Assembly: GCA_946481205.1 (NCBI GenBank)
Contig: CAMLNB010000018.1
Location: 1-25,394 of the forward strand
Source: an uncultured Kangiella sp.
Lineage (GTDB): Bacteria; Pseudomonadota; Gammaproteobacteria; Enterobacterales; DSM-103792
Direction of reading: 5' to 3'
DNA: 25,394 bases
Shown: positions 1,259-21,205 of the stretch, one piece after another
Numbering within the stretch: the first letter of the stretch is position 1
Layout of the letters: every line of letters starts with the position of its first letter
Notes under the pieces: generated by a model
The model's database searches: none
What the model saw: the letters and a program-made list of their open reading frames with translations, nothing else
Told to the model about the DNA's origin: nothing
Made by a program: the position numbers and the translations under genes

Positions 1259-1296
1259 CGCGCCCGGATTTCATTGGCTTGGAAGAGAGGGCACGG

Positions 1297-2751: not shown

Positions 2752-2763
2752 GGATAGGCCCCA

Positions 2764-3864: not shown

Positions 3865-3996
3865 ACTTTATTGTGATCCTTCTATTGCTGCCAGCCACAA
3901 ACTTTAGCAGTGGTTTTTCTGGTGCGGCGTAGTCAACTGCTAAACAAAAACTCAATGCTCTTCCAGAGATCAGGCTAAGGTAGAAATTCAGCAGTG

Positions 3997-5384: not shown

Positions 5385-6446
5385 ATGACAATTTTGGTGA
5401 CTGGTGGTGCAGGATTTATCGGTAGCAATTTTGTTCTGGATTGGTTAGCTCAATCCAGCGAGATGGTTGTTAACTTGGATAATCTCACCTATGCCGGAAA
5501 TCTCGACAATCTTGCCAGCGTTAAAGGCAATACCTCACATATGTTTGTGAGAGGCGACATCGGTGATACTGAACTTGTCTCGCAGCTGTTGGCGGAGCAT
5601 AAGCCTCGCGCAGTTCTGAATTTCGCAGCAGAAAGCCATGTTGACCGCTCCATTCACGGTCCTGGAGCGTTTATTCAGACCAACATCGTTGGAACATTTA
5701 ATCTGTTGGAGTCAGTTCGTAGCTACTGGTCGAAACTGGACGAGCCGAGTAAAGCTGGTTTTCGCTTCCTTCATGTTTCCACCGATGAAGTTTACGGGTC
5801 ATTGAGTAAGTCGGACCCCGCGTTTACCGAAACCAATCGGTACGAGCCCAACAGTCCATACTCCGCAAGTAAGGCCGCCTCTGACCATCTGGTGCGCGCA
5901 TATCATCATACCTATGGTTTGCCGGTGCTGACGACCAATTGTTCCAATAACTACGGTCCCTATCATTTCCCAGAAAAACTTATACCACTGTGTATTTTGA
6001 ATGCGCTATCCGGAAAACCATTACCAATCTATGGTGATGGTCAGCAAATCCGTGATTGGTTGTACGTGAAAGATCACTGTAGTGCGGTCCGTCGTGTGCT
6101 TGCTGCGGGGAAGATTGGGGAGACCTATAACGTCGGCGGTTGGAACGAAAAGCCCAATATCGAAGTGGTGAAGACTCTGTGTTCAATTCTTGATGAGTTA
6201 CAACCACGTACCGATGGTGGTTCGTATATGACGCAAATCACTTATGTCGCAGACAGGCCCGGGCATGATCGCCGCTATGCCATTGATGCTACCAAGCTGG
6301 AACGCGAGCTAGGCTGGAGGCCGGCCGAAACCTTTGAAACCGGCATTCGGAAAACAGTTCAGTGGTATCTGGATAACCAAGCATGGGTCAGAAACGTGAC
6401 CAGCGGTGCTTACCGTGAGTGGGTAGGTAAACAGTACGGAGCATGA
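5385..6446 (+). CDS. rfbB: dTDP-glucose 4,6-dehydratase
   Basis: Second enzyme of dTDP-L-rhamnose synthesis: oxidises and dehydrates dTDP-glucose to dTDP-4-keto-6-deoxyglucose with bound NAD. The 353-residue extended SDR protein has the NAD-binding [10 protein letters not shown] loop (G7, G10, G13), the catalytic S-T-D-E-V-Y-G segment (T133, D134, E135), the YSASK pair (Y159, K163), and the typical [14 protein letters not shown] substrate region. It begins 2 bases after manB and shares an ATGA overlap with rfbD, so translation is probably coupled. The order rfbB-rfbD-rfbA-rfbC is a common arrangement. Confidence 0.97.
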
Positions 6447-7336
6447 CGGTGAAGATTTTGCTAACCGGCAAGAATGGGCAAGTGGGGTTCGAACTCCAGC
6501 GCGCACTTGCACCACTCGGCGAGCTTACATCTGTTGGGCAGAAGGATTGTGATCTGAATGATGCTGAGGCAATTCGAGCTCTCATTCGAAAGGTTCGCCC
6601 GGATGTTATAGTCAATCCCGCAGCCTATACCGCGGTAGACAAGGCCGAGTCGGATATGGAGACTGCCAATCGCCTCAACGCATTAGCACCCAGAATCATA
6701 GGCGAAGAGGCCACAAAGATTGGCGCTCTTGTTGTTCATTACTCCACTGATTACGTTTTTGACGGCACGGGCGACAAAGCATTTACAGAGTACGACACTC
6801 CAGCACCATTAAGCATTTACGGCAAGACTAAGCATGCTGGAGAAGTCGGTCTTCGTGAGAGCAACAATAAGCATCTTATTTTTCGCACTAGCTGGGTCTT
6901 TGGTGCACATGGGGCCAATTTCGCCAAAACGATGCTACGGCTGGCTACAGAGCGTGACACTCTCAATGTCGTGGCTGATCAGTATGGCGCTCCAACGTCT
7001 GCCGCTCTTATCGCCGATGTGACCGCGCAAGTGATTGGGCAATATAAGAAAGCTAATGGAGCCACGTTTCCGTATGGCACCTATCACTTGGTCGCTGATG
7101 GGACCACAACTTGGCATGACTTTGCCAAGTACGTTATTACAGCGGCGGAACAAAATGGGAGGGCATTGAAAGTGAGGGCGATGGATATCGGAGCAATACG
7201 CACTGAGGACTATCCAGTACAAGCCCCGCGCCCAAAGAATTCTCGATTGTCGACGAACAAGCTGCGTGCCACTTTTGATCTCGCACTGCCACCTTGGCAA
7301 CAGGGGCTGGACCACGTGCTTAAGCAAATATTGTAA
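6443..7336 (+). CDS. rfbD: dTDP-4-dehydrorhamnose reductase
   Basis: Final enzyme of dTDP-L-rhamnose synthesis, an NAD(P)H-dependent SDR reducing the 4-keto group. In its 297 residues are the nucleotide loop TGKNGQVG (G9, G12, G15), [12 protein letters not shown], the STDYVFDG segment (T102, D103, Y104) and the catalytic YGKTK pair (Y126, K130). The C-terminal [12 protein letters not shown] segment is typical of RmlD. Its ATG overlaps the rfbB stop by 4 bases and its TAA touches the rfbA leader. Confidence 0.97.
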
Positions 7337-7347
7337 TGGAGATTCGT

Positions 7348-8226
7348 ATGCGGAAGGGCATTATTCTGGCTGGTGGTTCTGGTACAAGACTGCACCCTGC
7401 CACTTTGGCAATCAGTAAGCAGCTATTGCCGGTCTACGACAAACCAATGGTGTATTACCCACTCAGCACCCTGATGTTGGCGGGCATTCGCGACATTCTG
7501 ATCATCTCGACCCCACAGGACACGCCCCGCTATCAACAGCTGTTGGGTGATGGTTCGCAGTGGGGCCTCAACCTGACTTATGCCATTCAGCCAAGCCCCG
7601 ATGGACTTGCCCAGGCATTTCTTATCGGTGAGTCATTCATCGGAAATGACCCAAGTGCATTGGTGCTTGGCGACAATATTTTCTACGGCCATGATTTTCA
7701 TCGTCTGTTGGCAAACGCCGATGCGAGAGTCAGTGGCTCGACCGTATTTGCATACCACGTTCATGACCCCGAACGTTATGGAGTTGCCGAGTTTGATTCT
7801 CAGGGTAAAGTGCTTTCGCTGGAGGAAAAGCCGAAACAGCCAAAATCAAACTACGCCGTTACTGGCCTCTATTTTTACGACAATCAAGTGGTTGATATAG
7901 CAAAGTCTCTCAAACCGTCACCGCGTGGAGAGCTTGAGATTACGGACCTGAACTTGATTTATCTCGAACGCAATCAGTTGCAGGTAGAGATTATGGGGCG
8001 TGGATATGCTTGGTTGGATACCGGGACGCATGACTCACTGCTTGAGGCAAGCCATTTTATTGCGACTTTGGAAAAGCGGCAGGGCTTGAAAATTGCGTGT
8101 CCTGAAGAAATCTCGTTCAGGAATGGTTGGATAGATGCCAGTGAGCTTTCTGCTCTTGCTACCCCGATGTTGAAAAATGGGTACGGTCAGTATCTTAAGC
8201 AAATACTAAATGAAAAGGTTTTCTGA
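7348..8226 (+). CDS. rfbA: Glucose-1-phosphate thymidylyltransferase
   Basis: First enzyme of the dTDP-L-rhamnose pathway: dTTP plus glucose-1-phosphate gives dTDP-glucose. From ATG 7348 the protein is 292 residues, the RmlA norm, and opens with [17 protein letters not shown] followed by [26 protein letters not shown] (D109) and SLEEKP mark metal and sugar binding. The in-frame ATG at 7336 overlaps the rfbD stop, but GGAG at 7338-7341 is spaced 6 bases from 7348, which favours the later start. The stop codon overlaps the rfbC start by one base. RmlA enzymes are usually inhibited by dTDP-rhamnose; this cannot be read from sequence here. Confidence 0.97.
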
Positions 8227-8771
8227 TGAAATTCACGCGTCTTGAAATACCCGATGTGGTGCTCTTTGAACCCAAAATTTTCGGTGATGACAGAGGTTTT
8301 TTTTTCGAGAGTTTCAACAAAAGTGCCTTTGATGATGTCGTCGGCCCAGAGCGAAAATTTGTCCAAGACAATCATTCAAAGTCAACGAAAGGTGTTCTCC
8401 GTGGACTTCACTATCAGATAAGCCAGCCTCAAGGAAAACTAGTGCGTGTGGTAGTTGGTGAGGTTTTTGATGTCGCTGTCGACCTTCGGAAAAAATCCCC
8501 GACATTTGGGAAATGGGTCGGCGAGCATTTGAGTGCGGAAAATAGAAAACAACTTTGGGTTCCTGAAGGATTCGCGCATGGCTTTGTTGTGCTTAGCGAG
8601 TACGCTGAGTTTTTGTATAAAACGACAAATTATTACGCACCAAAATTTGAACGAAGTTTGTTATGGAATGACCCTGATTTGTCAGTGAATTGGCCGATAA
8701 ACTCGTTACCCATTCTTTCACAAAAAGACGCTGCTGCTACTTTACTGAAGAATGCGGAGATATATGACTGA
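8226..8771 (+). CDS. rfbC: dTDP-4-dehydrorhamnose 3,5-epimerase
   Basis: Third step of dTDP-L-rhamnose synthesis, epimerising C3 and C5 of the 4-keto sugar. The 181-residue cupin protein carries the RmlC hallmarks: DDRGFFFESF, NHSKSTKGVLRGLHYQ with the probable catalytic base H62, PQGKLVRV, VPEGFAHGF, and a tyrosine at about Y131 as the likely general acid. Start and stop each overlap a neighbour by one base (rfbA before, wzm after), tying the rhamnose genes directly to the exporter. The GFFF codons create a run of nine T (8297-8305), which the conserved motif itself explains. Confidence 0.96.
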   Translation: MKFTRLEIPDVVLFEPKIFGDDRGFFFESFNKSAFDDVVGPERKFVQDNHSKSTKGVLRGLHYQISQPQGKLVRVVVGEVFDVAVDLRKKSPTFGKWVGEHLSAENRKQLWVPEGFAHGFVVLSEYAEFLYKTTNYYAPKFERSLLWNDPDLSVNWPINSLPILSQKDAAATLLKNAEIYD

Positions 8772-9589
8772 TGCAAGATTTTTCTCTCTCCCCGATGTCA
8801 TTGTTTGCTAGCTTTCTGAACAACAGACATCTTACTAAGTCGCTTGTAAAGCGTGAGATCATTGGGCGTTATCGTGGCTCGATGTTGGGCTTGTTGTGGT
8901 CGTTCTTCAATCCCGTTCTCATGCTTCTTGTTTATACATTCGTGTTCAGCGTCATCTTTCAGGCTCGTTGGGGTGGGGGAGGGGACTCTAAGACTGAGTT
9001 CGCATTAGTTTTATTTGCGGGACTAATTGTATTCAGTCTTTTTTCTGAAATGCTGAACAGATCTCCAAGACTGATTTTGGATAACGTGAATTATGTAAAA
9101 AAGGTAGTTTTTCCACTCGAAATTTTACCAATTGTTGCTTTAGGGGCGGCGTTGTTTCATATGCTGATAAGTTTAATGGTGTGGGCCATTGCATTTGCCC
9201 TTTTATTTGGTCGTCCACCTATAACAGCTTGTCTTTTACCAATCGTATTGATGCCATTGATTCTATTTACACTCGGGATTTCATGGCTATTGGCATCCCT
9301 CGGTGTTTACTTGCGTGATCTGTCGCAATTTGTCGCTGTAATTTCCACCGTTCTTATGTTTTTGTCGCCGATATTTTATCCTGTTAGTGCGCTACCTGAA
9401 GAGTACCAGTACTTTCTGTACTTGAACCCCCTTACGAACATTATTGAGCAAGTAAGAAATGTACTCTATTGGGGGAATTTACCAGACTTTTTCGAGATTC
9501 TAATTAGTACTCTTCTTTCCTTGCTATTCGCTTGGTTTGGCTTCGCGTGGTTTCAGAAAACGCGTAAGGGCTTTTCTGATGTTCTTTGA
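8771..9589 (+). CDS. wzm: O-antigen/polysaccharide ABC transporter permease
   Basis: Inner-membrane ABC-2 type permease that, with Wzt, moves undecaprenyl-linked polysaccharide to the periplasm. The 272-residue protein has the family's cytoplasmic N terminus with LVKREIIGRYRGSMLGLLWSFFNP (the amphipathic gate-helix region), then about six hydrophobic segments and a short basic C-terminal tail. Its start overlaps the rfbC stop (TGATG). A Wzm/Wzt exporter, with no Wzx or Wzy in the window, places this locus in the ABC-transporter-dependent class. Unlike most wzm-wzt pairs, it is separated from wzt by 236 bases. Confidence 0.94.
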   Translation: MQDFSLSPMSLFASFLNNRHLTKSLVKREIIGRYRGSMLGLLWSFFNPVLMLLVYTFVFSVIFQARWGGGGDSKTEFALVLFAGLIVFSLFSEMLNRSPRLILDNVNYVKKVVFPLEILPIVALGAALFHMLISLMVWAIAFALLFGRPPITACLLPIVLMPLILFTLGISWLLASLGVYLRDLSQFVAVISTVLMFLSPIFYPVSALPEEYQYFLYLNPLTNIIEQVRNVLYWGNLPDFFEILISTLLSLLFAWFGFAWFQKTRKGFSDVL

Positions 9590-9825: not shown

Positions 9826-11196
9826 ATGTCGTCTGAAATCGCGATATGCGTTGAAGGTGTAAGCAAATGCTTCCAGATTTATGAGCATCCTCGAGATCGG
9901 CTAAAACAATTTTTCTTTCCAAGAGTTCAAAAAATTTTTAGTCTGCCTAAACGTGCATATTTCAGAGAGTTTTGGGCGCTAAAAAATATATCCTTCACTG
10001 TTAGAAAGGGGGAGTCTGTTGCAATTGTAGGCCGTAATGGAAGCGGTAAGTCTACGCTTTTGCAAATTATATGTGGGACCCTGAATTCTTCAAGTGGAAT
10101 AATTCGAACGAATGGTCGTATAGCCGCCCTTCTTGAGCTTGGTTCCGGATTCAATCCAGAATTCACTGGTCGCGAGAATGTCTATTTAAATGCGTCTGTG
10201 CTTGGCTTAAGTCTTGAAGAAATTAACTCCAAGTTTGATGAAATTGTGTCCTTTGCCGACATAGGGGCGTTCATTGATCAACCGATTAAAACATATTCAA
10301 GTGGTATGGTTGTCCGCTTGGCTTTTTCTGTTCAAGCAAGTGTTGACCCTGAGATTCTTATTGTTGATGAGGCGCTGGCTGTTGGCGATATTGGCTTTCA
10401 GTATAAATGCTTTCAGAGGATGGAGGCACTTAAAAGAAAAGGAGTCACCATTTTAATGGTGACTCATAGTACCAGTAGTGTATTAGAGTACGCTGATCGC
10501 TGCATCGTATTGGATAGTGGCGAAATGACCAATGATTCAAACGATGTGCTAGCTGCAGTATTAACCTACGAGAAGGGTATGCTGAGTCCTGCTGAATATC
10601 TTCCTGAAAAAAGTGAATTGCATTTTAACGGAAAGAGCTTTGATGTGCAGCAGCTTCGTACCATTCAGTCCAATTTTAGAAATTTCGATCTCAATGAAAA
10701 GCGCTTTGGTTCATCTAGGGCGATAATCGAAAGTGTTAGGGTCTTTAGAACAGGCGCAAAATCAGATTCTGATTCGCCTGCTTTCAAGTGTGGCGACGAA
10801 TTAACTTTCAAGTTTCGATTGCTTTCATCTGAGCGAATGGAGAACGTTGTTTTAGGTATTTCATTATCGAAAGCCCAAGGAGGGGACGTTTGGGGCGACA
10901 ATAATGTTTTTGCCGGTCATCCGATTCGCCTAGATTTAGGTGAAAATTACTTAGAATATCGTGTCCGCTTACCACTTGCATCCGGCGAGTACCTGTTGCA
11001 CTGCGGGTTAGCTTGCTTCGACGGCGACCAACGTGATGAGCTAGATCAGCGCAGACCCGTTGCAAAAATAGTCTTCCTGTCAACACGCGAACAAGTTGGT
11101 GTCGTGTTTGCTCCCATAACGGTGCTCACAGGTGAAACGCATCGTGCAAAAAGTAAGTCTGAGCAATTCACTCTACTCGAAAGGGGTATGCAATGA
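9826..11196 (+). CDS. wzt: Polysaccharide ABC transporter ATPase with C-terminal glycan-binding domain
   Basis: ATP-hydrolysing partner of Wzm at the cytoplasmic face. Residues 1 to about 250 form the ATPase: Walker A GRNGSGKST (69-77), the Wzt-typical signature YSSGM (157-161) in place of LSGGQ, Walker B ILIVDE (177-182), and the switch histidine H214. Residues about 285-440 form an extra beta-rich domain of the kind that, in E. coli O8/O9a and Klebsiella O12 Wzt proteins, binds the modified non-reducing end of the finished chain. The 456-residue length fits the long CBD-bearing class, not the short CBD-less class. It overlaps the next gene by 4 bases (ATGA). That gene encodes a likely chain terminator, so Wzt probably recognises the residue it adds. 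Confidence 0.94.
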   Translation: MSSEIAICVEGVSKCFQIYEHPRDRLKQFFFPRVQKIFSLPKRAYFREFWALKNISFTVRKGESVAIVGRNGSGKSTLLQIICGTLNSSSGIIRTNGRIAALLELGSGFNPEFTGRENVYLNASVLGLSLEEINSKFDEIVSFADIGAFIDQPIKTYSSGMVVRLAFSVQASVDPEILIVDEALAVGDIGFQYKCFQRMEALKRKGVTILMVTHSTSSVLEYADRCIVLDSGEMTNDSNDVLAAVLTYEKGMLSPAEYLPEKSELHFNGKSFDVQQLRTIQSNFRNFDLNEKRFGSSRAIIESVRVFRTGAKSDSDSPAFKCGDELTFKFRLLSSERMENVVLGISLSKAQGGDVWGDNNVFAGHPIRLDLGENYLEYRVRLPLASGEYLLHCGLACFDGDQRDELDQRRPVAKIVFLSTREQVGVVFAPITVLTGETHRAKSKSEQFTLLERGMQ

Positions 11197-13247
11197 TCGC
11201 TGCTTATTTGCTGCCTTTCCCAGTTCGTGGAGTTAGTGCGCCCTATCTTTGGTTTTTCTATCGCCTACTTACTGCCTACAAAGAGCCAATGCTCTTTATA
11301 TCCAGTCAAGAATACAGAAAAAGTCCGAAAGAATGGAGCGCAGATGAACGTTGGGAAGTTACTGCGGATGCCTGCAATAGACTTGGGTATTCTTTGCCAT
11401 CTGAGTCGACTTTTTCTTGTCATTCATATTTTGATCTAAGTGAAAAGATATTTGTTGACCTCCTTGCCGAATGTGGAGGGAATCCAACGGCTGCTTTTCG
11501 GCGCTTGTTATGCGATAGAATTCCGAGTTTGGAGAAAGAGCTTTCGTCTGCTCTAAGAGATGTGGGAGGTTTAGAAGCAATTCTAACACTATGTAATTGC
11601 CCATCATTGACATCTGTAGCAAAAGAATTTGGTGTCCCCGTTGTGCACATTGAGTTAGGTCCATTGCGTGCTCCTCTGTACCATGCGACCGCATACTTCG
11701 ATTTTAGAGGAGTAAACGGCAATACCGAGTTTAAAGAGCGCTATCTAAATGCTTCCTGGAGTGCGGATGATAAATGGGATGTAGATGACTTGAAGGCATT
11801 ACTGCAGCAACGTAATGAAAGTGACAATAATGTGACTCGGGGTGATAGCATTGGCGTTGTTTTGCAGGTTGATGACGACTCAAACTTGGTTGCGTTCGGA
11901 AATGGGTATAGTAATCAAGACTTACTGAATTACGCGGCTCTTAACTTTGATGTGAAGAGTTTGCTCGTGCGTACCCATCCAGGAAGTGCTTTTGATGCAA
12001 GGAATGTTCGTTACGATGTCGATAGGTCCTGTAATACAGTAGAGTTCTTTAAAAGATGTAAGCATGTTTTGACAGTCAATTCGAGTGTCGGTTTCGAGGC
12101 AATGTTACATCGAGTACCTGTTACAGTTGTTGGAGACTGTTCATATCGCTTCATATTGGACGCCGGGGATTCCGGCGAATTTCTCCGGCGCATTTCCTTC
12201 TATTTACTAGCTTACTTGGTTCCCATGGATCTGGTATTTGAGCCATGGTACCTGCGTTTCCGTCTCAGTTTTCCCGACGACCGCGATATTGCAATTAGAC
12301 ACCTAAAAAAGTATGGAGAGTTAACTAGTAAACTCCTCGTCGATGGAGATATTCAATTAGCTCGTCTCAATAGGGATATTATCAAACGCGATGATCAGCT
12401 CGCACATGTCAATCAAATCATTGCAGAGCGAGACACGCAGCTCACTGAACTTACTGAAACGATTGCAGCACGAGATATCTTACTTGCGACGCTAAGTCAG
12501 AGGGTAGCAGAAAAAGATGCACAACTTTTCGACCTCGGCCAGACGGTCGTTGAGCGAGACTCCCAACTCTCCTGCATTAGTCAGGTCGTCGATGAGAGAG
12601 AGGCTCGTCTTGCTGAGCTTGGTGATACCCTTGCTAGGCTAGAGGCTCAACGCTCCGAGCTTTCCTTGGCGATTGGCCAACGAGACTCTCAACTTTCCCA
12701 CCTTAGTCAGGTAGTCGCTGACAGAGAGGCTCGTCTTGCCGATCTTGGTAATTCCCTTGCTAAGCTAGATGCTCACTACTCAGGTCTTGCTCAGGCGATT
12801 GGTGAACGAGAGTCCCAACTCTCCAGCCTTAGTCAGGTAGTTGCTGAGAGAGACTCTCGACTTGTCGATCTTGACCGGGTCATTATGGAGCGTGATTCTC
12901 ATATCGCGGATCTTAGTCGTATGCTGACCGAACGAGACCGCAGTTTCAACCAACTTATCAATTCAAGATCTTGGCGGCTCACTAAACCGGTCCGGTTCTT
13001 GGGCCGTTTGTTGGGAGGGGATTTCAAAGAAGCACTTGGGCCAGTGCTAAGGATTCTGCGCCTTAACAAAACAGAAATGCCAGCCAATTTAGAGTCACAG
13101 AGTTTGAAGGGGGCTGCAATGTTAGATTGCGATTCGGTCGATGGACATTTAGGTTCCTTGACTTCGAGCGCTATCTCAACGTCAGATGATCTTGCACTCG
13201 TTACCAGGCGGGTAAACTCCGACGATAATAGCACCTCCGATAATTGA
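11193..13247 (+). CDS. Kdo-transferase-like (KpsC/WbbB GT99-type) protein fused to a 14-residue-repeat coiled coil; probable chain terminator and ruler
   Basis: A 684-residue protein, translationally coupled to wzt (ATGA overlap). Residues about 1-360 resemble bacterial beta-Kdo transferases of the KpsC/KpsS and WbbB (GT99) kind. They contain HIELGPLR (152-159), an acidic LQVDDDSN motif (224-231) matching the QVEDDxS motif of KpsC, VRTHPG (259-264) matching its KPHPD, and VNSSVGFEAML (295-305) matching its SSLGFEALL. Residues 381-590 are fifteen uninterrupted 14-residue repeats of the form hhxERDxQLxxLxQ, a predicted coiled coil. Then comes SRSWRLTKPVRFLGRLL (591-607), an amphipathic C-terminal motif, and a polar tail. 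In E. coli O9a WbdD a coiled coil between a capping enzyme and its anchor sets chain length; in WbbB a Kdo transferase caps the chain. By inference this gene does both jobs. Kdo transfer itself is not proven. N-terminal homology is judged from motifs only. Confidence 0.72.
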   Translation: MIAAYLLPFPVRGVSAPYLWFFYRLLTAYKEPMLFISSQEYRKSPKEWSADERWEVTADACNRLGYSLPSESTFSCHSYFDLSEKIFVDLLAECGGNPTAAFRRLLCDRIPSLEKELSSALRDVGGLEAILTLCNCPSLTSVAKEFGVPVVHIELGPLRAPLYHATAYFDFRGVNGNTEFKERYLNASWSADDKWDVDDLKALLQQRNESDNNVTRGDSIGVVLQVDDDSNLVAFGNGYSNQDLLNYAALNFDVKSLLVRTHPGSAFDARNVRYDVDRSCNTVEFFKRCKHVLTVNSSVGFEAMLHRVPVTVVGDCSYRFILDAGDSGEFLRRISFYLLAYLVPMDLVFEPWYLRFRLSFPDDRDIAIRHLKKYGELTSKLLVDGDIQLARLNRDIIKRDDQLAHVNQIIAERDTQLTELTETIAARDILLATLSQRVAEKDAQLFDLGQTVVERDSQLSCISQVVDEREARLAELGDTLARLEAQRSELSLAIGQRDSQLSHLSQVVADREARLADLGNSLAKLDAHYSGLAQAIGERESQLSSLSQVVAERDSRLVDLDRVIMERDSHIADLSRMLTERDRSFNQLINSRSWRLTKPVRFLGRLLGGDFKEALGPVLRILRLNKTEMPANLESQSLKGAAMLDCDSVDGHLGSLTSSAISTSDDLALVTRRVNSDDNSTSDN
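12333..12962 (+). repeat. Fifteen 42-bp (14-residue) tandem repeats encoding a coiled coil
   Basis: Exactly 15 units of 42 bases (630 bp, residues 381-590 of the overlapping protein) without insertion or deletion. The consensus peptide has hydrophobics at positions 2, 9 and 12, Arg-Asp at 5-6 and Gln-Leu at 8-9. Each unit spans two heptads. The first unit (LLVDGDIQLARLNR) and units 7 and 10 are the most divergent. If one continuous helix, 210 residues would span about 31 nm at 0.15 nm per residue. Confidence 0.9.
12543..12920 (+). repeat. Three tandem 126-bp super-repeats (3 x 42 bp each)
   Basis: Units at 12543-12668, 12669-12794 and 12795-12920 are visibly alike at the DNA level. Hand alignment gives 18 mismatches over the first 84 bases of units 1 and 2, and about 10 over the first 60 bases of units 2 and 3. 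Peptide echoes include RDSQLS-LSQVV and EARLA-LG. The pattern indicates block duplication of three 42-bp repeats, more recent than the origin of the basic repeat. Confidence 0.85.
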
Positions 13248-13617
13248 ACCTGTATTGTATTTTACAAGGCTTTGGATGAAATAATGCTACTTAAAGCCTT
13301 ATGGAGCATTAGTTGAAACGGGATCTCAGAAGTGAATGTGTAAGAGTTCCAATTTAAAATCACGTGATTGGGTAGGGGAAAATGCTTTAAGTCGATATAA
13401 ACTCTACCCGAATGGTGGTTTTGGCTGTATCTGTCTTTCTGATAAAATACATCAGTTCGTCTTGGCAGATATGTGTATTTAAAAGTGATTTCTTTGAATG
13501 GTCCTTAAGGTTGCTGGTCAGCTATAGAGGCATGTCCGTTGTATTTCAATTCCTTCGATCTGGCCAGCATGTTCCTATGATCTACAGCATTTTGCAATTC
13601 GTAAATTGAGGCGGTTA
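13248..13617. other. 370-base region without a convincing gene, upstream of galU
   Basis: It holds an 8-bp inverted repeat AAGGCTTT / AAAGCCTT (13266-13273 and 13293-13300, 19-base loop, no T-tract), so at most a weak terminator. It also holds a good -10-like TATGAT at 13576-13581 with only poor -35 matches, which could start galU transcription. A 65-codon open frame at 13412-13609 has no ribosome site and no recognisable product. The galU ribosome site GAGG is at 13608-13611. Confidence 0.5.
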
Positions 13618-14457
13618 ATGGAAACTACGAAGCGTATCAGAAAGGCAATTTTCCCTGTGGCAGGGATGGGTACTCGATTTCTACCTGCGACAAAAAGCAT
13701 ACCTAAAGAAATGCTTACCATCGTTGACAGACCGATTATTCAATATGCTGTCGATGAGGCAGTTGCTGCAGGTTGTGATCATTTGATATTTGTAACTGGT
13801 CGAAATAAACGTGCGATTTCTGACTATTTTGATAGACATCCGGAGCTTGAGTTTGAACTCGAACAAAAAGGGAAAATTAGAGAGCTAGAGCTAATTCGAA
13901 ATGTGCTTCCTAAGCATGTGAAATGCACTTTTGTGATACAGCCCCAAGCACTTGGACTCGGTCACGCAATATCCTGTGCGTCTCATTTAATTGATGATAG
14001 TGAAACTTTTGCGGTGCTTCTGCCGGATGACCTAATTGATGCATCCCCTAATTTTTGTTTGAAGCAAATGGTGGAAGAGTGGAGAGCGAAGCGGGTTGAG
14101 GGTGTAATCGCTATTGAACAGGTTCCAGAAAACGAGACTCATAAGTACGGGGTGGTGGGATTTGGCATCAGAGATCAAAATGATTTTACTATCAAGGAGA
14201 TTGTTGAAAAGCCAAGTGTTGGGGAGGCGCCATCGAACTGGTGTGTCGTTGGTAGATACCTCCTCCCCGGCAGTATAATGTCAAGACTTTCCGACTTGGC
14301 TCCAGGCAAGTCTGGGGAGGTTCAACTGACAGATGCAATAAAGATTGTTGTTAATGAGCAAAGAATTGTCGGATTTCCGTTTCATGGTAGGCGATTCGAC
14401 TGTGGAAATAGGGCCGGATTTTTAGAGGCAAATGTCCATTTCGGGATGAAAGACTAG
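13618..14457 (+). CDS. galU: UTP-glucose-1-phosphate uridylyltransferase
   Basis: Makes UDP-glucose from UTP and glucose-1-phosphate in the cytoplasm, a precursor for glucose and galactose residues and LPS core. The 279-residue protein opens with KAIFPVAGMGTRFLPATKS (G16 to K26), followed by IPKEMLTIVDRPIIQYAVDEA, LPDDLID, EKP and FDCGNRAGFLEA, all GalU landmarks. ATG 13618 is chosen because GAGG (13608-13611) is spaced 6 bases from it; an in-frame TTG at 13606 precedes that site and is unlikely. The C terminus stops soon after the GNRAGFLEA segment, somewhat shorter than E. coli GalU but past the catalytic core. It starts a second gene group after a 370-base gap; a second housekeeping galU may exist elsewhere. 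Confidence 0.94.
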   Translation: METTKRIRKAIFPVAGMGTRFLPATKSIPKEMLTIVDRPIIQYAVDEAVAAGCDHLIFVTGRNKRAISDYFDRHPELEFELEQKGKIRELELIRNVLPKHVKCTFVIQPQALGLGHAISCASHLIDDSETFAVLLPDDLIDASPNFCLKQMVEEWRAKRVEGVIAIEQVPENETHKYGVVGFGIRDQNDFTIKEIVEKPSVGEAPSNWCVVGRYLLPGSIMSRLSDLAPGKSGEVQLTDAIKIVVNEQRIVGFPFHGRRFDCGNRAGFLEANVHFGMKD

Positions 14458-14512
14458 ACTGATTTTTACTCCTGCGGAAGTGAAGGTCCCGCTAAAATTT
14501 CTGGATACCCAA

Positions 14513-16711
14513 ATGAATACGTTTAACAAAATATCAGTTGCTGTGGTTGTTCCTGTTTATAGGGATGTGGCACTAACTCTTAAATGCATTAAGTCTGCGA
14601 TTCCCGATCTGTTGGGTAACCCGGGGAACAGGCTTATTGTTATTCATGACAAGGGGCCTGAATCTGATATGCTTCCGGCGCTTAAAAGCCTGCAATCAAC
14701 ATACAATAATTTGATAGAGGTTGTTGAGAATTCATTGAATGTCGGTTTCGTTAAATCAGTCAATCGTGCGCTCTCAATGATTGCGAGCGAAGATGTTGTC
14801 TTGCTTAATAGTGACGTGATACTCCCTCCAGGGTGGCTAACCAGGTTGCAGCATGATTGTTATGGTGAAGAGCGGATCGGCACCGCAACGCCAATGACAA
14901 ATAATGGAACGATATGTAGTTTCCCCAAAAACCTTTCTGAAAATGAGTTACTTTGGGGTTTGTCTGTTGAGCAAATTGATAAAGGCTTCTCCAAAGTAAA
15001 ATTACCAGTCATTGAAGCTCCTACAGGGGTCGGTTTCTGCATGTATATTAGAAATGCATGCTTTCATGATGTTGGGAAACTGGACGAAGAGAGTTTTGGT
15101 AGAGGGTATGGTGAAGAAAATGATTTTTGTCAGAGGGCCATAAAGCAAGGCTGGAAAAATGTCATTAGCCCGAACGTATTCGCACATCATGTTGGAAGCG
15201 TGAGCTTCTCGACGGAAAAGTCAAGTTTGATCAAGAATGCAATGGAGAAACTGGCAAAGCTGCACCCAAACTACCATTCTGATGTGGCTCAATTCATACA
15301 GAATAATCCACTAAAGATAACAAGAATTCGTAGGTTAGCTGAGCTTGTTTCTCTTCAAAGACGTCCTGTCGTGGTACATGTTTGCCATGAACTTGGCGGT
15401 GGCGTAAAGCAGCACATTGACGAGCTTACATCGGCGTTGATTGGGCATGCGACTAGCATCCTCATCCAACCCTGCCGGGGGGCAGATCGGGTTGCGGTCA
15501 CGTTTTCCGATCTTTCCGAAGGCGACCAGCTTCAATTTGAAGTTCAAAGTGAGTATTCAAGCTTGCTTGAACTGTTGAGAGCCTTTTGCGTTGGAATGAT
15601 ACATTTTCATCACACGCATGGACTTCACCCCAAGATTTGGAGTCTGCCATCGGACCTAAAAATTCCGTATTGTGCCACCGCCCATGATTACTACTGGATA
15701 AACGCTAATCCAACGCTGACCGACACCGATGGCGTAGCAAGGCTTGCACGAATAGATGACGATAGTGTTGTAAATCCGCTCTATCCACTGCCAAATGGAG
15801 TCACTGCCTCAGAATGGCGAGACTCATTGCGCGCGTTGCTGGAAGGGGCTGATTTTGTGATATTTCCATCTGCGTTCACTGCCAGAATCTATGCGAAATT
15901 TTATGAGTTTAAGAAAATTTATATTGTTTGGCATCTTGACGATGCTCGCAAGCCGATAAATGCTGACATTGAAACAGCCCCCACAAAGCACGCACAGATC
16001 AACGTTGGAGTTCTGGGTGCACTGGGAAAGGAGAAGGGGGCAGACCTTCTAGAATACTTTGCACAGTCCTCAGCAAGCCATTCGCTCAAATTTATACTTG
16101 TGGGCTATGCGTACCGAAGTTTGTCAGGTGTTGAGGCGACCGGACCGTATTCAGACGTTGACTGTCAAGAGATCATTAAAGAAAAAGACGTGCACATATT
16201 TGTGTTTCCTGCTAGATGGCCAGAAACTTTTAGTTATACATTGAGTCACGCAATTGCTACAAATCTACCGATATTTGCGCCCCGAACTGGTGCATTTATT
16301 GAGCGGCTCAGCGGAAGGAGGAATACCTATCTTTTTGATCACGAAAAAGACACCAGCGATATATTCACGGAGTTTTTGAGTTTTATCGAAAAATTTAGAC
16401 GCGGGGAGACAATATACTCAGAGCGTTATGAAAATTTTGAAAGGGTTGACTCAAATAACTTCTATTTCAATATCTATACTGAGTATCTAAAGAATGCTGC
16501 GCCGCCCATTGAATCTGTTCTGTTTTGGGATTATGCAAATAAAATGGCACCAGTAAATACGTCTGACGACTGGAAAATGGACGTGCTTAAAGTACTTTGG
16601 AGAGTAACGCATTCCAAGTTTGGTTCTGTCCTTGCCGGATTTTTGCCATATCGATTCAAGCGTTGGATAAAGCGTTCTCTATCCTCGATGCCGATCCATC
16701 AAATAAAATAG
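14513..16711 (+). CDS. Two-domain glycosyltransferase (GT2 N-terminal, GT4-like C-terminal)
   Basis: A 732-residue cytoplasmic or membrane-associated protein probably carrying out two glycosidic transfers. Residues about 6-240 are a GT2 (GT-A) domain: VAVVVPVYRD, NVGFVKSVNRAL, the DXD-like VLLNSDV, and GYGEENDFCQRA. Residues about 280-640 resemble GT4 (GT-B): VVHVCHELGGGVKQHIDEL, HFHHTHG, the mid-domain VGVLGALGKEKGADLL, and WPETFSYTLSHAIA near the nucleotide site. In GT4 enzymes this last segment normally reads E-x7-E; here E571 is kept but the second position is H579. Multi-domain transferases are common in Wzm/Wzt loci, where few proteins build a regular repeat. The start is uncertain: an in-frame GTG at 14480 has no spaced ribosome site, and ATG 14513 with GGAT upstream is preferred. 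Donor and linkage cannot be assigned. Confidence 0.86.
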   Translation: MNTFNKISVAVVVPVYRDVALTLKCIKSAIPDLLGNPGNRLIVIHDKGPESDMLPALKSLQSTYNNLIEVVENSLNVGFVKSVNRALSMIASEDVVLLNSDVILPPGWLTRLQHDCYGEERIGTATPMTNNGTICSFPKNLSENELLWGLSVEQIDKGFSKVKLPVIEAPTGVGFCMYIRNACFHDVGKLDEESFGRGYGEENDFCQRAIKQGWKNVISPNVFAHHVGSVSFSTEKSSLIKNAMEKLAKLHPNYHSDVAQFIQNNPLKITRIRRLAELVSLQRRPVVVHVCHELGGGVKQHIDELTSALIGHATSILIQPCRGADRVAVTFSDLSEGDQLQFEVQSEYSSLLELLRAFCVGMIHFHHTHGLHPKIWSLPSDLKIPYCATAHDYYWINANPTLTDTDGVARLARIDDDSVVNPLYPLPNGVTASEWRDSLRALLEGADFVIFPSAFTARIYAKFYEFKKIYIVWHLDDARKPINADIETAPTKHAQINVGVLGALGKEKGADLLEYFAQSSASHSLKFILVGYAYRSLSGVEATGPYSDVDCQEIIKEKDVHIFVFPARWPETFSYTLSHAIATNLPIFAPRTGAFIERLSGRRNTYLFDHEKDTSDIFTEFLSFIEKFRRGETIYSERYENFERVDSNNFYFNIYTEYLKNAAPPIESVLFWDYANKMAPVNTSDDWKMDVLKVLWRVTHSKFGSVLAGFLPYRFKRWIKRSLSSMPIHQIK

Positions 16712-16729: not shown

Positions 16730-17746
16730 ATGAAGGCGAAATTAGACAATCTTGATGTCGTAAGGTTATTTTTGGCATGGCTAGTTACATTTTCGCACTG
16801 CTATCCTTTAACTAACTCCACCGAACCTATCTCGAAAATTTTGGTACACCAATCCGGCGGGGGCTTAGCCGTCAATGGTTTTTTTTTGATTAGTGGGTAT
16901 TTGGTCGCAGTGAGTTGGATGAACAGGCCCAATCCTGTTCTATTTACAGTTTCGAGGATTATGCGAATCTGGCCTGCGCTCATTCTTGCACTCTTATTTA
17001 GTGTGCTTTGTGCGGCGTTGACCTCATCTGCTACCGTTTGGGAATTTATTTCTTCCGCGGCAGGATACATGGCTCATGGCCTTACCCTTTTTGGTGGTGT
17101 TCAGTATGAGCTGATTGGCGCATTTTCTAACCAGTCTACAACCTCTGTAAATGGCTCATTATGGACGCTGCCGTGGGAAGTAAGATGCTACCTTTTTCTG
17201 TTGTTGATCGGATTGCTTGGGATTCTCGAAAGAAGGGATTGTTTTAACTTGCTTTTCTTGTTGCTCTTATATGTCGTTTTCACTGGACTTAATTACCACC
17301 CTTTTACTGAAAATAAAGAAGTCCCTTTGATGCTAACGGCCTTCCTAACAGGGTCGTTTATTGCTGTCAACTTTCGGCCAGGAAAGCTTCATTTTGCAAG
17401 TCTTTTTTTGCTAGTGCTATCTATTGTCTTCTATTGGCTGAGAAGGCCTGATTTTTCAATACTGTTCTTTTTTTCATTTGCAATACTCACTTTAGGGTTT
17501 CAGGATTTTGTAAGGCTAAGCCCATTGAAGCTTGATATGTCATATGGGGTTTATCTCTATTCATTTCCCATACAGCAATTAATAGTTTTCATGTTTCCCT
17601 CTATTAGTCCGCCGTTTCTTTTCATTGCTTGTATTCTTCCAATTACAGTCTTTGCATACTTCTCTGCAAAATTTGTTGAGGCTCCATCGCTGCGCTTTCT
17701 TAAAGCAACGTTGGCTCCAAGGATTCTTAAAAATGAAAATGCCTAA
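16730..17746 (+). CDS. Acyltransferase-3 family membrane protein (OafA-like O-acyltransferase)
   Basis: A 338-residue integral inner-membrane protein with about ten hydrophobic segments and the acyltransferase-3 signatures: NLDVVRLFLAWLVTFSHCYPL near the N terminus with R12 and the conserved H23, GGLAVNGFFLISGYLVA, and NGSLWTLPWEVRCYL. Family members such as OafA transfer acetyl or other short acyl groups to O-antigen sugars. It lacks a periplasmic SGNH domain. It starts 18 bases after the glycosyltransferase with only a weak ribosome site, and its end overlaps the following lipoprotein gene by 14 bases. The acyl group and acceptor sugar are unknown. Confidence 0.88.
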   Translation: MKAKLDNLDVVRLFLAWLVTFSHCYPLTNSTEPISKILVHQSGGGLAVNGFFLISGYLVAVSWMNRPNPVLFTVSRIMRIWPALILALLFSVLCAALTSSATVWEFISSAAGYMAHGLTLFGGVQYELIGAFSNQSTTSVNGSLWTLPWEVRCYLFLLLIGLLGILERRDCFNLLFLLLLYVVFTGLNYHPFTENKEVPLMLTAFLTGSFIAVNFRPGKLHFASLFLLVLSIVFYWLRRPDFSILFFFSFAILTLGFQDFVRLSPLKLDMSYGVYLYSFPIQQLIVFMFPSISPPFLFIACILPITVFAYFSAKFVEAPSLRFLKATLAPRILKNENA

Positions 17747-18566
17747 TGCTGTATTCGCCTGCTTTTTGGTCTTGCTGGCAGGCTGTAGGCCTAGCGAAAA
17801 TCCAGTGAATGCGACGAAAGCAACTCATGAGCCGAGCGCTAAATCAGATTTGTATTGGGGCGCGCTTTTTCTGAATGAGAAGGAGCTGCATCTTCGAACC
17901 TCCTTTGAATCAGGGTTCTCTGAAAAAGTAATTACGATTCCAAATGCGCCACAAATGCTCACATTGCTCGGAAGATGGGATGGAAGCGATGTGAAGTTGG
18001 CTACTTTTGACCGCAATAGCTGCGCACTTGTTTTTTACTCAGACCTCTCGCTCGAAAAGCAAGTTTCGCATTTCACGGTTGATTGTTCCAATAAGTCACT
18101 GGCGGTAGTTTCTGGGGATTGGAATGGCGATGGGGTTGATACCGTAGGAATATATGATAGGGATTTGAGCGTTTTCACTCTATTCAATAGGAATGATGGT
18201 GCTTTAGAGTCGGCTTCTTTCCAGTACGGGCCGGTTGGGGGGGCGGCTTTCCCTATTGCTGGTGATTGGGACGGAGATGGTAGGGACACTGTTGGCCTAT
18301 GGTTCAATTCGAAATTCCAGGTGGATTTAAAGAATTCAAACGCTGAAGGTTTTGCAGACATTTCATTTGTAATTCCGTACCAGGGAACTGGCTCTGATGA
18401 GCTAACGCCATTTTCCATCAAGTATATGTCACATACAGCAATCGGTGTCCACAGTGCTAAAATGGGAGTTTTTACACTCTATCCCGATTTTCATGATGTG
18501 AATAAAATTATTACAGTTGAGTTTGGCAGAAAGAATGCTGTTTCAATTCCTATTGTCGGAGGTTAG
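17733..18566 (+). CDS. Lipoprotein with FG-GAP/VCBS-like repeats
   Basis: A 277-residue predicted lipoprotein of unknown function. A short signal peptide ends in the lipobox LAG-C (C18); Arg at +2 does not give the inner-membrane retention signal, so the outer membrane is expected. The mature part carries beta-propeller-type repeats about 48 residues apart: a degenerate GRWDGSD at 80-86, then GDWNGDGVDTVGIYD at 128 and GDWDGDGRDTVGLWF at 177. The last two have intact Asp-rich calcium-binding-like loops. ATG 17733 is preferred over 17739 because AAGGA (17719-17723) is spaced 9 bases from it. It overlaps the acyltransferase end and is followed one base later by the dioxygenase start, so it belongs to the same transcript. 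A carbohydrate-binding or surface role is a guess. Confidence 0.75.
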   Translation: MKMPNAVFACFLVLLAGCRPSENPVNATKATHEPSAKSDLYWGALFLNEKELHLRTSFESGFSEKVITIPNAPQMLTLLGRWDGSDVKLATFDRNSCALVFYSDLSLEKQVSHFTVDCSNKSLAVVSGDWNGDGVDTVGIYDRDLSVFTLFNRNDGALESASFQYGPVGGAAFPIAGDWDGDGRDTVGLWFNSKFQVDLKNSNAEGFADISFVIPYQGTGSDELTPFSIKYMSHTAIGVHSAKMGVFTLYPDFHDVNKIITVEFGRKNAVSIPIVGG

Positions 18567-18567
18567 C

Positions 18568-19479
18568 ATGTTTACAAGTGAATTTGGCTCGCTATGGATT
18601 GATCGGGCTGACGCTCTTCAGTTGGTGGAGAGCAAGTTATTGAGTAATGTGAATTTTCAGGATTTTCGGAGTAAGATTGATTTTTTTATCAAGAATGGGT
18701 ATGTAATTTTTGAATCTGAAGTACCTCATCAAGTGATTGATCAGTATTTGCATGACTTTGATAATGCGCTTACCAAAGACATTGGACTCTTGGCTTCGGT
18801 TCCTGCACATGGGCCTCAGGACAAAGGGATTATTTCTGCGACAGGTTCAAACAGAAGGGCCCCCTTGACCAAATACCTTGACACATATTGGTTAATTTCG
18901 TCGGCCTTGCCCATTATTTTTTCCACCAACATTAGTCGGTTTTTGTCGCTCATATTTGAAAGAGAACCTCTGGCGTTTCAAGGATTGCATTTCGAGACTG
19001 GATCGACACAAGCAATACATCAAGATACTGCTTATGTTGTTTCTGAGAAGCCGTTAGCACTTGCTGCTAGCTGGGTTGCTCTCGAGGATGTTGCCGAGGG
19101 AGCTGGCGAGTTAATCTATTATGAGGGGAGTCACAAACTTCCGGATTGGAAGTACTCAGGGAAGTTCAAACACTTTAATCACGAGCGCGATCCACATGAG
19201 CAGCATCTGCGCCATTTGGAATTCTTGCGCTCGGAGTCAGAACGACGTGGACTGCCACTTAAGCATTTTCTGCCAAAAAAAGGAGATGTGCTGATTTGGT
19301 CTGCGGACCTTGCACATGGTGGCGCAGAAATTTCTAAACCTGAGCTGTCTCGTAAGTCATTAGTCACCCACTACTGTCCGTCTGGTTTGAGGCCTCACTA
19401 CTTTAATTACATAGATAGTAGCCGGCAGACTGTTAGAACTAATAGCGGAATTGGTTTGACTTCGACATTTTATTATTAA
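18568..19479 (+). CDS. Phytanoyl-CoA dioxygenase (PhyH)-like Fe(II)/2-oxoglutarate oxygenase
   Basis: A 303-residue cytoplasmic protein of the PhyH group of non-haem iron oxygenases. The iron facial triad is visible: the H-x-D motif in AIHQDTAYV (H151, D153) and the distal histidine in DLAHGGAEI (H250). R262 in SRKSLVTHY is the likely 2-oxoglutarate ligand. GAGELIYYEGSHKLP is a further family segment. All expected ligands are present, so it should be active. The ATG at 18568 is clear: GGAGG (18558-18562) is spaced 5 bases. It is transcribed with the lipoprotein gene, whose stop lies one base before. The substrate is unknown; the context suggests hydroxylation or oxidation of a glycan sugar or its acyl substituent. 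Confidence 0.85.
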   Translation: MFTSEFGSLWIDRADALQLVESKLLSNVNFQDFRSKIDFFIKNGYVIFESEVPHQVIDQYLHDFDNALTKDIGLLASVPAHGPQDKGIISATGSNRRAPLTKYLDTYWLISSALPIIFSTNISRFLSLIFEREPLAFQGLHFETGSTQAIHQDTAYVVSEKPLALAASWVALEDVAEGAGELIYYEGSHKLPDWKYSGKFKHFNHERDPHEQHLRHLEFLRSESERRGLPLKHFLPKKGDVLIWSADLAHGGAEISKPELSRKSLVTHYCPSGLRPHYFNYIDSSRQTVRTNSGIGLTSTFYY

Positions 19480-19890
19480 GTGAGAAATATGGTCTAGATA
19501 TTGATACCAGCCAAAAGTGAGTCTGCCGGTACATGTAACCCAGCAGGCCAAAACATGAAGAAATGATTCACCGAAGAACAGATCATCTGTGTATTGCGGG
19601 AAGACGAGCAGGACGGGGTGGTGATCTGGGGGTAGTGCCGGAAATAGAACATCAACGAGCAGACCTTTTTCCGCTCGTGTAATAGTTGTACGCCCCGGAG
19701 GAGGTCCCCTCTGTGGGCCGGCCATGGATGGCCATATTCCTCGCTGTGTAACAGAACGCCCGCTCAGTCGGGCCTGGAACAACGGCAAACTCACGCTGCG
19801 ATTGGTATCAAATAGTCGTTGCAGGAGAGGTGATGTCGGAGGGGGGGTATTTGTCTTGGCTAGGGCGATTTTATTCTGAGGATTTATTTA
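19480..19890. other. 411-base gene-free stretch with IS debris
   Basis: Its composition differs from the surrounding A+T-rich genes, being G+C-richer from about 19590 to 19800. It contains the decayed IS3-family orfA described separately. It also contains short inverted repeats (GGCCAT-GG-ATGGCC at about 19720-19735 and GCCCG-CTCAGT-CGGGC near 19770) and a run of seven G at 19841-19847. No intact reading frame is convincing. The last bases carry the ribosome site of the next gene. Confidence 0.6.
19555..19710 (+). pseudogene. Decayed IS3-family transposase orfA fragment
   Basis: Reading from ATG 19555 in one frame gives MKK*FTEEQII-VLRE, then CRK*NINEQTFFR, with stop codons at three places. 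This matches the start of IS3-family (IS407-like) OrfA, normally MKKRFTEEQIIxVLRE followed by CRKHGISEQTFYRWK. DNA similarity seems to continue to about 19710 with frame disruption. No orfB and no clear terminal repeats were found. It is an old insertion scar between the dioxygenase and the second acyltransferase. Confidence 0.75.
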
Positions 19891-21039: not shown

Positions 21040-21205
21040 ATTCAAACTGTTCCTTGTAAATTCGGGCTCTCTCTGCTGAGGGGGTATATATCATGTTAGG
21101 TAACTTATTGTTGAAGAGCTTATTCAGTGTTTTTGTAAGCAATCGGTTGAGTCCTAATTCGTGCGCGTCGGGGCATAACCATCATGTTAAAGATGTTTGC
21201 ATGTT

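Follow-up and report, generated by a model that had tools for sequence, protein, structure and literature searches.

The window, by which we mean the whole stretch of 25,394 nucleotides analysed here, harbours on its plus strand the rml genes upstream of wzm, followed by wzt, by an open reading frame which we call the terminator gene, and further downstream by a candidate polymerase gene (Table 1). The overlap of the terminator gene with wzt that had been claimed in the original prediction is real and amounts to 4 nt, since the stop codon TGA of wzt (11194-11196) and the start codon ATG of the terminator gene (11193-11195) share the letters ATGA. The extra C-terminal domain claimed for Wzt was recovered as well: Wzt_C (PF14524) matches behind the ATPase domain with 4.8e-14 (53 bits, cut-off 30.4), and residues 270-435 match 5hno with 1e-46, which we take to be the Kdo-reading Wzt domain of O12. 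At the WbbB locus of R. terrigena, Wzt matches 5hno with 372.7 bits across 176 residues, and the C-domain of the window's Wzt is by its sequence akin to the Wzt domain of this Raoultella locus. In 39 of 54 GT99 loci a Wzt ATPase gene on the same strand ends at most 150 nt from the GT99 start, and in 34 of those the C-domain resembles that of the window; no adjoining Wzt was found in the other 15, some of which (L040, L049) start too near the contig end.

Table 1. Features of the locus; residue numbers refer to the product of the terminator gene.
Feature	Position	Strand	Basis
rmlB, rmlD, rmlA, rmlC, dTDP-rhamnose supply	5385..8771	+	PF16363, PF04321, PF00483, PF00908
wzm, ABC-2 permease	8771..9589	+	PF01061 8.5e-30
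wzt, ABC ATPase with C-terminal carbohydrate-binding domain	9826..11196	+	PF00005, PF14524, 5hno
Terminator open reading frame	11193..13247	+	684 aa, ATG start
GT99 head (residues 1-366), predicted retaining beta-Kdo transferase	11193..12290	+	PF21912, Capsule_synth, 5fa0, Foldseek, active-site residues
Putative ruler, coiled coil of 15 repeats of 14 residues (residues 382-591)	12336..12965	+	lag-14 identity, predicted helix
126-bp (3 x 14 aa) tandem repeat in the ruler	12555..12873	+	TRF, 2.5 copies, 80% matches
Hinge SRSWRLTKPVR and helices after it (residues 591-623)	12963..13061	+	helix break, motif counts
Tail, predicted disordered (residues 624-684, 61 residues)	13062..13244	+	block pLDDT 27-38
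Likely polymerase, GT2 + GT4, 743 aa from GTG (732 aa in entry P0125)	14480..16711	+	PF13641, PF13692

The 358 nt 3' of the terminator gene contain no listed plus-strand gene of at least 80 aa, and the counts of promoter- and terminator-like sequences around its end are close to the shuffled means. Behind these 358 nt and galU, as the second gene downstream, lies the GT2-GT4 gene, whose product shares 36% identity across 769 positions with the C-terminal part of P0089, a fused GT99 protein, and gives just a weak GT2 match with P0093. By this similarity it is the likely polymerase of the system. The assignment is not certain, because 358 nt and galU intervene and because another GT2 gene is present in the window (21197-22000).

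Head, coiled coil and hinge of the predicted terminator

The N-terminal domain matches PF21912, the GT99 N-terminal domain, over the full profile (1-179; 1.8e-61, 207.8 bits against a Pfam cut-off of 27), which places it in GT99, and Capsule_synth with 1.5e-8. Residues 2-366 match the solved WbbB structure 5fa0 with an E-value of 1.7e-90, and the AlphaFold model of the head shows the modified GT-B fold of 5fa0. When this model was compared by Foldseek, the first 14 matches were all WbbB chains (E 2e-45 to 7e-42, TM by target 0.87-0.92). We also considered membership in GT107 (KpsC) and rejected it, as KpsC is matched only by fold and with far weaker E-values (about 1e-6 to 2e-5; 4e-7 to 2e-5 for KpsC and KrkA together). 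The KpsC/WbbB-like motifs named in the original prediction were all located within residues 225-305 (QVDDDSN 225-231, RTHPG 260-264, SSVGFEAML 297-305). For the active site we took ten residues named in the WbbB structural paper (PMC9587256), i.e. the nucleophile Asp, the base Glu, the His of the HP motif and contacts to Kdo and acceptor; the chain numbers of the 5fa0 alignment are those of the paper plus one. All ten checked residues are kept in the head: R12, W20, W54, E154 (E158 in WbbB), R159 (R163), N175 (N179), Q225 (Q228), the nucleophile D229 (D232), S230 (S233) and H262 (H265). Sequence and model thus support a GT99 (WbbB-type) head, a predicted beta-Kdo transferase and not a GT107 member, as far as Kdo transfer is concerned in agreement with what had been proposed. 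Because the closest GT99 relatives are just 50-52% identical to the window protein, the acceptor specificity could differ.

Polymerase modules behind the coil, which characterize WbbB as a single protein, were not found, and their claimed absence holds insofar as the Pfam matches listed (25 of 28, E up to 1) include no glycosyltransferase family past residue 366. Neither do the listed matches comprise a methyltransferase or kinase domain of the WbdD family.

The fifteen strict 14-residue repeats described before were confirmed: residues 382-591 form 15 rows of 14 in a single register without insertions or deletions, the row 480-493 resembling the others only loosely. Lag-14 identity across residues 371-605 is 0.299, a value reached by none of 2000 shuffles (maximum 0.149), and lag-42 identity of the same stretch is even higher (0.378). 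AlphaFold predicts one helix (386-589, 204 residues, about 30 nm) in a model of a single chain, with confidence below 60 over 381-400 and 451-490. Repeats and predicted helix agree with the proposed built-in coiled-coil ruler. By a home-made heptad rule, which also flags globular stretches such as 266-296 in the head, the window protein has 213 coil residues after the head. A similarity search with ruler and tail (376-684), scored among the 7995 candidates sharing most words, gave four matches besides the window itself.

At residues 590-591 the helix breaks, followed by predicted helices at 592-607, 611-614 and 616-623, with low confidence from 608. The motif SRSWRLTKPVR, which had been taken as the end of the protein, is indeed present from residue 591, but the 61 predicted-disordered residues follow the hinge helices, and the C-terminus lies 94 residues past the start of the motif. 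The hinge is found in 68 of 120 proteins of the polymerase family (shuffled mean 0.4, maximum 3), and in 64 of the 72 members with more than 200 N-terminal residues it stands ahead of the GT2 domain; the window's hinge resembles this family more than other GT99 proteins, and the window's likely polymerase carries no hinge motif of its own. Three proteins of the window's polymerase type, namely the Erwinia polymerase L019 and two GT99 fusions (P0089, L022), lack the motif between coil and GT2, and it is also missing from 9 of the 16 polymerase-free GT99 loci. For this reason we only infer that the hinge might serve as a polymerase dock. In eight other GT99 proteins without polymerase, most of them only remotely related to the window protein, the C-terminus lies 18-30 residues past the start of the hinge motif. 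This recurrent chain end singles out the hinge as the place to look for what fixes the rod or brings in the polymerase.

Distribution and possible exchange of the parts

We sorted 51 GT99 loci into classes of our own: in 16 the head is followed by a coil or hinge tail but by no glycosyltransferase family (Pfam at E up to 0.001), another 16 are fusions with an additional glycosyltransferase, 15 are heads alone and four are of other types. Calling the architecture uncommon is therefore overstated, although only 4 of the 16 (L025, L031, L043, L051) have at least 100 coil residues after the head by the heptad rule. Terminator and ruler in one protein are the usual state for such systems, as WbbB, WbdD and the terminator of K. 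pneumoniae O4 show (PMC11231755). Only one thing is less usual, namely a GT99 head with a long ruler that would work without having its polymerase on the same polypeptide. Within one order, searched around the L035 genome, GT99 matches turned up in two of 399 genomes (L001 and L035, both already in the set). In a literature search of titles and abstract openings we found neither a GT99 terminator without polymerase nor natural ruler-length alleles; the founding papers on WbbB and the O12 Wzt may describe either.

The closest GT99 relatives of the window protein, P0031 and P0019, are fused to WbbB-like polymerases which have no BLAST match to the window's likely polymerase. While the head thus groups with fused WbbB-like relatives carrying another polymerase, the end of the ruler and the hinge resemble fused proteins of the window's own polymerase family. 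Within this family, the rulers of near-identical FkbM-headed proteins are longer or shorter by units of 14 residues, a series that may hold assembly errors, as metagenomes assembled from short reads can lose copies of a 42-bp repeat. The NCBI record of one of these proteins, P0152, is assigned to Acidovorax temperans, and P0142 differs in its unit sequences. Members of the P0152 family turned up in 53 of 399 genomes, and 30 of these loci were viewed for their lengths alone. Two GT99 proteins from Pseudomonas (L027 and L029) are 102 ruler residues apart and 90-91% identical on both sides. Judged by sequence, these length variants look like natural ruler-length alleles. Both the 14-residue FkbM steps and the 102-residue Pseudomonas gap would allow a quantitative ruler test in which coil length in nanometres is set against the number of sugar units, and no engineered variants would be needed.

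We tentatively propose, giving it somewhat less than even chances, that ruler and hinge form a portable cassette on the polymerase side, with GT99, FkbM and other methyltransferase heads swapping at the head-ruler boundary, genes splitting or fusing on either side and the ruler gaining or losing units like a minisatellite. In the window, a GT99 head would then have been joined to ruler and hinge from a GT2-GT4 polymerase lineage, the chain being cut later in the linker. If so, a lineage could alter O-chain length and cap independently. The data indicate that a GT99 Kdo terminator can do without a fused polymerase, so that head, ruler and polymerase can be taken apart.

Proposed function and comparison with known systems

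With high confidence we regard the window protein as a Kdo-capping chain terminator with its own ruler, acting on an ABC-transporter-dependent O-antigen made by a separate GT2-GT4 polymerase. This reading rests on the GT99 homology, the kept active site, the predicted fold and helix, the lack of a polymerase module, the gene overlap and the kinship of the Wzt domain. The polymerase would extend an undecaprenyl-linked chain at the membrane, which is probably rhamnose-containing, given the rml genes upstream of wzm and the Rha-GlcNAc acceptor of WbbB (PMC9587256). The hinge after the coiled coil may hold the base of the rod to the membrane, to the polymerase or to both. In whatever oligomeric state the coil would adopt, the head would sit about 30 nm off at the far end of the rod and reach only chains grown long enough, which would set the chain length. 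There, beta-Kdo from CMP-beta-Kdo would be transferred via an adduct on Asp229, and growth would stop.

A decaying WbbB, which has lost its polymerase half and keeps head and ruler as unused leftovers, could be suspected from the fusion of P0031 and P0019 to WbbB-like polymerases and from the disordered tail followed by 358 nt without a listed plus-strand gene of at least 80 aa. However, the ten active-site residues and an uninterrupted coil of 15 repeats are kept, the gene start overlaps wzt, another polymerase-like gene is the second downstream, the hinge is closer to that polymerase's family than to other GT99 proteins, and the chain end shortly after the hinge recurs in eight other polymerase-free GT99 proteins; we consider decay very improbable. 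That the Kdo is placed inside the polymer or on a lipid linker, as by KpsC, instead of forming the final cap, seems scarcely credible: the fold is common to KpsC and KrkA, but sequence and fold are far closer to WbbB, the overlapped wzt has a C-domain akin to that of the WbbB locus, and a long coil is present.

A coiled coil serving just as scaffold or as a stalk for oligomerisation, with chain length set elsewhere, is rather unlikely. The head-to-hinge lengths of GT99 proteins, ranging from 33 (L053) to 478 residues (L031), would fit such a stalk, but insertions into and truncations of the WbdD coil shift the modal length (PMC5082667), and the helical spacer of WbbB is described likewise (PMC9587256).

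WbbB of Raoultella terrigena and K. pneumoniae O12 (GT99-coiled coil-GT102-GT103) shares with the window protein the GT99 active site, a coil after the head, the S-x-S-W hinge and an adjoining Wzt bearing a CBM. In contrast to WbbB, the window protein has no polymerase modules, and the likely polymerase is of the GT2-GT4 type; the head-to-hinge distance is about 225 residues, compared with about 125 in L023. A terminator-ruler separate from the polymerase is described for WbdD/WbdA and for O4 (PMC11231755), and this layout, with the terminator distal on a long coil and a separate polymerase gene in the cluster, is also found in the window. As in WbdD of E. coli O9a with WbdA, the terminator lies at the end of a coiled coil; the C-terminal membrane and recruitment region of WbdD (PMC11231755, PMC5082667) would have its counterpart here, and while WbdD adds phosphate and methyl, the window's head is predicted to transfer Kdo. 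ORF7 of K. pneumoniae O4 is likewise a Kdo-adding terminator with a coiled coil and separate polymerase enzymes, but belongs to GT137 and adds alpha-Kdo (PMC11231755), whereas beta-Kdo is predicted for the GT99 protein of the window. Finally, the fusions of FkbM methyltransferase, coiled coil, GT2 and GT4 (P0138, P0152 and others) have a polymerase part about 44% identical to that of the window and share with it the 14-residue repeats and the hinge SRSWRLTKP, but carry a methyltransferase head and combine everything in a single chain.

Reading frame, ruler and neighbourhood of the terminator gene

Translation of the terminator gene yields 684 residues in which the motifs, the repeats and the hinge (SRSWRLTKPVR) of the original prediction are all present. 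The proposed Kdo-transferase-type head is likewise supported, as the N-terminus is assigned to GT99 by Pfam (1.8e-61), followed by Capsule_synth. At E≤10 only four PDB sequences match the protein (E 1.7e-90 to 3.1e-89, residues 2-366), all of them WbbB chains according to their entry titles. Ten WbbB residues named in excerpts of PMC9587256 have counterparts in the window protein (R12, W20, W54, E154, R159, N175, Q225, D229, S230 and H262). In an AlphaFold model built on 26 aligned sequences the head is confident (29 of 37 ten-residue blocks up to residue 370 score at least 90), and a Foldseek search with this model places 14 WbbB chains on top (E 2e-45 to 7e-42), with KpsC and KrkA ranking much lower (E 4e-7 to 2e-5).

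The ruler consists of 15 rows of 14 residues in a single register (residues 382-591), as had been claimed, with a lag-14 identity of 0.299 against a maximum of 0.149 in 2000 shuffles. The lag-42 identity is higher (0.378), and in the DNA the 42-residue super-unit corresponds to a repeat of 126 bp with 2.5 copies and 80% matches; therefore duplications of three units at once probably gave rise to part of the ruler. AlphaFold predicts the ruler as one helix of 204 residues (386-589), which at 0.15 nm per residue would measure about 30 nm. This helix breaks at 590-591 and is followed by another at 592-607, by short helices up to 623 and by a disordered tail; confidence is low over the tail and parts of the coil. 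The hydrophobic moment of residues 595-612 (0.38; protein mean 0.16, sd 0.08) fits a weak amphipathic surface helix.

The terminator gene overlaps wzt by 4 nt, and the C-terminal domain of the window Wzt matches the solved structure 5hno (E 1e-46). The same structure matches the Wzt of the Raoultella terrigena locus, where the gene following wzt encodes WbbB. In that system, according to excerpts of PMC9587256, the end read by the binding module of the transporter arises through Kdo addition. The Wzt gene ends at most 150 nt from the start of the GT99 head in 39 of 54 loci; 34 have a window-like C-domain. In the window, rml genes lie ahead of wzm, and the terminator gene is followed by galU and then by a 743-aa GT2+GT4 protein, the likely polymerase. 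Further downstream are two acyltransferase-3 genes, and the region 16730-21039 also holds a PhyH-like ORF and one that matches FG-GAP weakly. A nucleotide-sugar 4,6-dehydratase-like ORF with NCBIfam matches below cut-off, which we take to be of the CapD/WbpM type, lies on the opposite strand where the window ends.

Domain layouts at GT99 loci

The genome collection was scanned with two peptide patterns, which gave 101 related stretches. The best 80 were kept, and 54 of them have a GT99 head at E<1e-20. Three loci were omitted (L042, its protein identical to that of L041; L049, partial; L054, cut) and the other 51 were sorted by hand, the two main classes being checked with Pfam at E≤0.001. In total 16 of the 51 are fused, all with a glycosyltransferase family after the head, although several of these matches fall below the Pfam cut-off; L032 is among the fused loci. 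Another 16 have a tail without polymerase, with a glycosyltransferase family after the head in none of them at E≤0.001; 15 consist of a short head alone and four were classed as other. By our own, coarse rule a coil is flagged after the head in 14 of the 16 loci without polymerase, but it reaches at least 100 residues in only four (L025, L031, L043, L051); the hinge motif is present in seven. Therefore the architecture, predicted to be uncommon, is so only in part: the split layout itself is common, while long rulers are uncommon among the loci that have it. On a quick tree of 57 rows (loci, window and five database proteins) at least 12 layout changes are needed, compared with a shuffled mean of 29, which indicates that the layout is inherited yet repeatedly changed. 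Among nine polymerase-less proteins with the hinge motif (window, the database protein P0116 and seven loci) the chain ends 18-30 residues past the start of the motif in eight, and 94 residues past it in the window.

Other arrangements were also seen. The Erwinia locus L019, with a lone GT99 head beside a polymerase gene with an N-terminal coil, is split on the opposite side of the ruler. In Thiobacillus and related MAGs (L001-L006, L009, L011, L018) the head stands alone (385-406 aa) and most of the loci also encode a polymerase-like protein; those of L003, L005 and L011 have an internal hinge motif, with a flagged coil ahead of it in L003 and L005. The Desulfuromonadales protein of L031, in which Pfam at E≤0.001 finds no polymerase family, has about 478 residues from head to hinge, the longest among the GT99 proteins compared. 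A Verrucomicrobiales protein (L052) combines the head with a Methyltransf_24 domain, possibly two capping activities together, and the C-terminal end of an Acidobacteria GT99 protein (L047) matches tetratricopeptide repeats; both belong to the class other. Dyella jiangningensis carries two GT99 loci (L041, L042) on one chromosome, and Candidatus Steffania adelgidicola (L015, chromosome record 1.37 Mb) has retained a full fused GT99-polymerase gene.

Coordinates, lengths and hinge positions of the features discussed
Feature	Coordinates (nt)	Length (aa)	Hinge at residue
Window, terminator	11193-13247 (+)	684	591
Window, GT2+GT4 protein	14480-16711	743	
Window, acyltransferase-3	16730-17746		
Window, acyltransferase-3	19891-21039		
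Window, 4,6-dehydratase-like ORF	23019-25001 (-)		
L019, Erwinia	10001-13650		
L031, Desulfuromonadales	1286-3910		
L047, Acidobacteria	10001-12292		
L052, Verrucomicrobiales	7085-9361		
L027, Pseudomonas, WbbB-like	10001-13288		
L029, Pseudomonas, WbbB-like	10001-13594		
P0146, FkbM-headed		1103	321
P0138/P0142/P0150, FkbM-headed		1117	335
P0139/P0151/P0163, FkbM-headed		1131	349
P0152, FkbM-headed		1145	363

Histories of head, ruler and hinge

In the quick tree the window head pairs with the database protein P0031 (97% SH-aLRT), P0019 being next (94%). Both are GT99 heads fused to a WbbB-like polymerase: to the C-terminal part of R. terrigena WbbB, P0031 is 40.6% identical over 530 positions and P0019 is 38.5% identical over 566. 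Neither gives a useful match to the window polymerase (best E 2.1 and 0.12, respectively). The window polymerase is instead similar to the C-terminal portion of a further GT99 fusion, P0089 (36% over 769 positions). Its family comprises 3760 proteins found, of which the best 120 were analysed. More than 100 extra residues, always N-terminal, occur in 73 of these 120, and FkbM methyltransferase (PF05050) is listed for 47 by hand count. The hinge motif is present in 68 of the best 120 (200 shuffling rounds: mean 0.4, maximum 3) and precedes the GT2 domain in 64 of the 72 whose N-terminal part exceeds 200 residues, while lag-14 identity over the 98 residues ahead of the hinge reaches at least 0.2 in 46 of 64 family members versus four of 34 other GT99 rows (window 0.31); these counts are not independent, as they include close relatives, chiefly an Acidovorax-type group. 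The 46 residues of ruler end and hinge of the window score 117-138 against the best members of the polymerase family and do not exceed 91 against other GT99 proteins, with means of 100.7 (26 family rows), 75.0 (25 GT99 rows, window included) and 64.1 (20 locus rows).

The plain reading of these comparisons is that head and ruler-hinge would be of different origin, the latter sharing its history with the polymerase. Against this, the stretch compared is short, and the hinge motif is lacking between coil and GT2 in P0089 and L022, which are GT99 fusions to a window-type polymerase, as well as in the Erwinia polymerase of L019.

In FkbM-headed homologues of the window polymerase, length changes in steps of whole 14-residue units of the ruler (see table), which look like natural ruler alleles, although assembly collapse of repeats is possible in this series. 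Identities are 94.96 to 98.78% for those pairs of these eight proteins that fall among the 80 listed of 254 protein pairs. P0149 (1132 aa) and P0153 (1146 aa) have one extra residue, located elsewhere. P0133 and P0142 are 96.6% identical across 830 residues that span ruler, hinge and polymerase, yet their methyltransferase heads differ, an apparent exchange of the cap head. Of the two Pseudomonas WbbB-like proteins, that of L029 has a ruler 102 residues longer than that of L027, with 90-91% identity on either side (head 334/366, after the insertion 601/665) and a 120-bp tandem repeat (2.0 copies, 94%) in the expanded ruler. This difference is a multiple of neither 14 nor 7, which counts against a simple unit rule.

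Comparison with WbdD/WbdA and WbbB

For WbdD/WbdA and for K. pneumoniae O4 it is established that one protein unites terminator and ruler and that the polymerases are separate, as described in excerpts of PMC11231755, while in WbbB a single chain comprises the head, the ruler and the polymerase, as described in those of PMC9587256. The window resembles WbdD/WbdA in its split layout, with GT99 as the terminator, and because the polymerase modules are absent its protein is, strictly speaking, no WbbB. Therefore the window protein is a GT99 terminator in a WbdD-like split layout, and what is new is the combination of this terminator with a layout that was already known.
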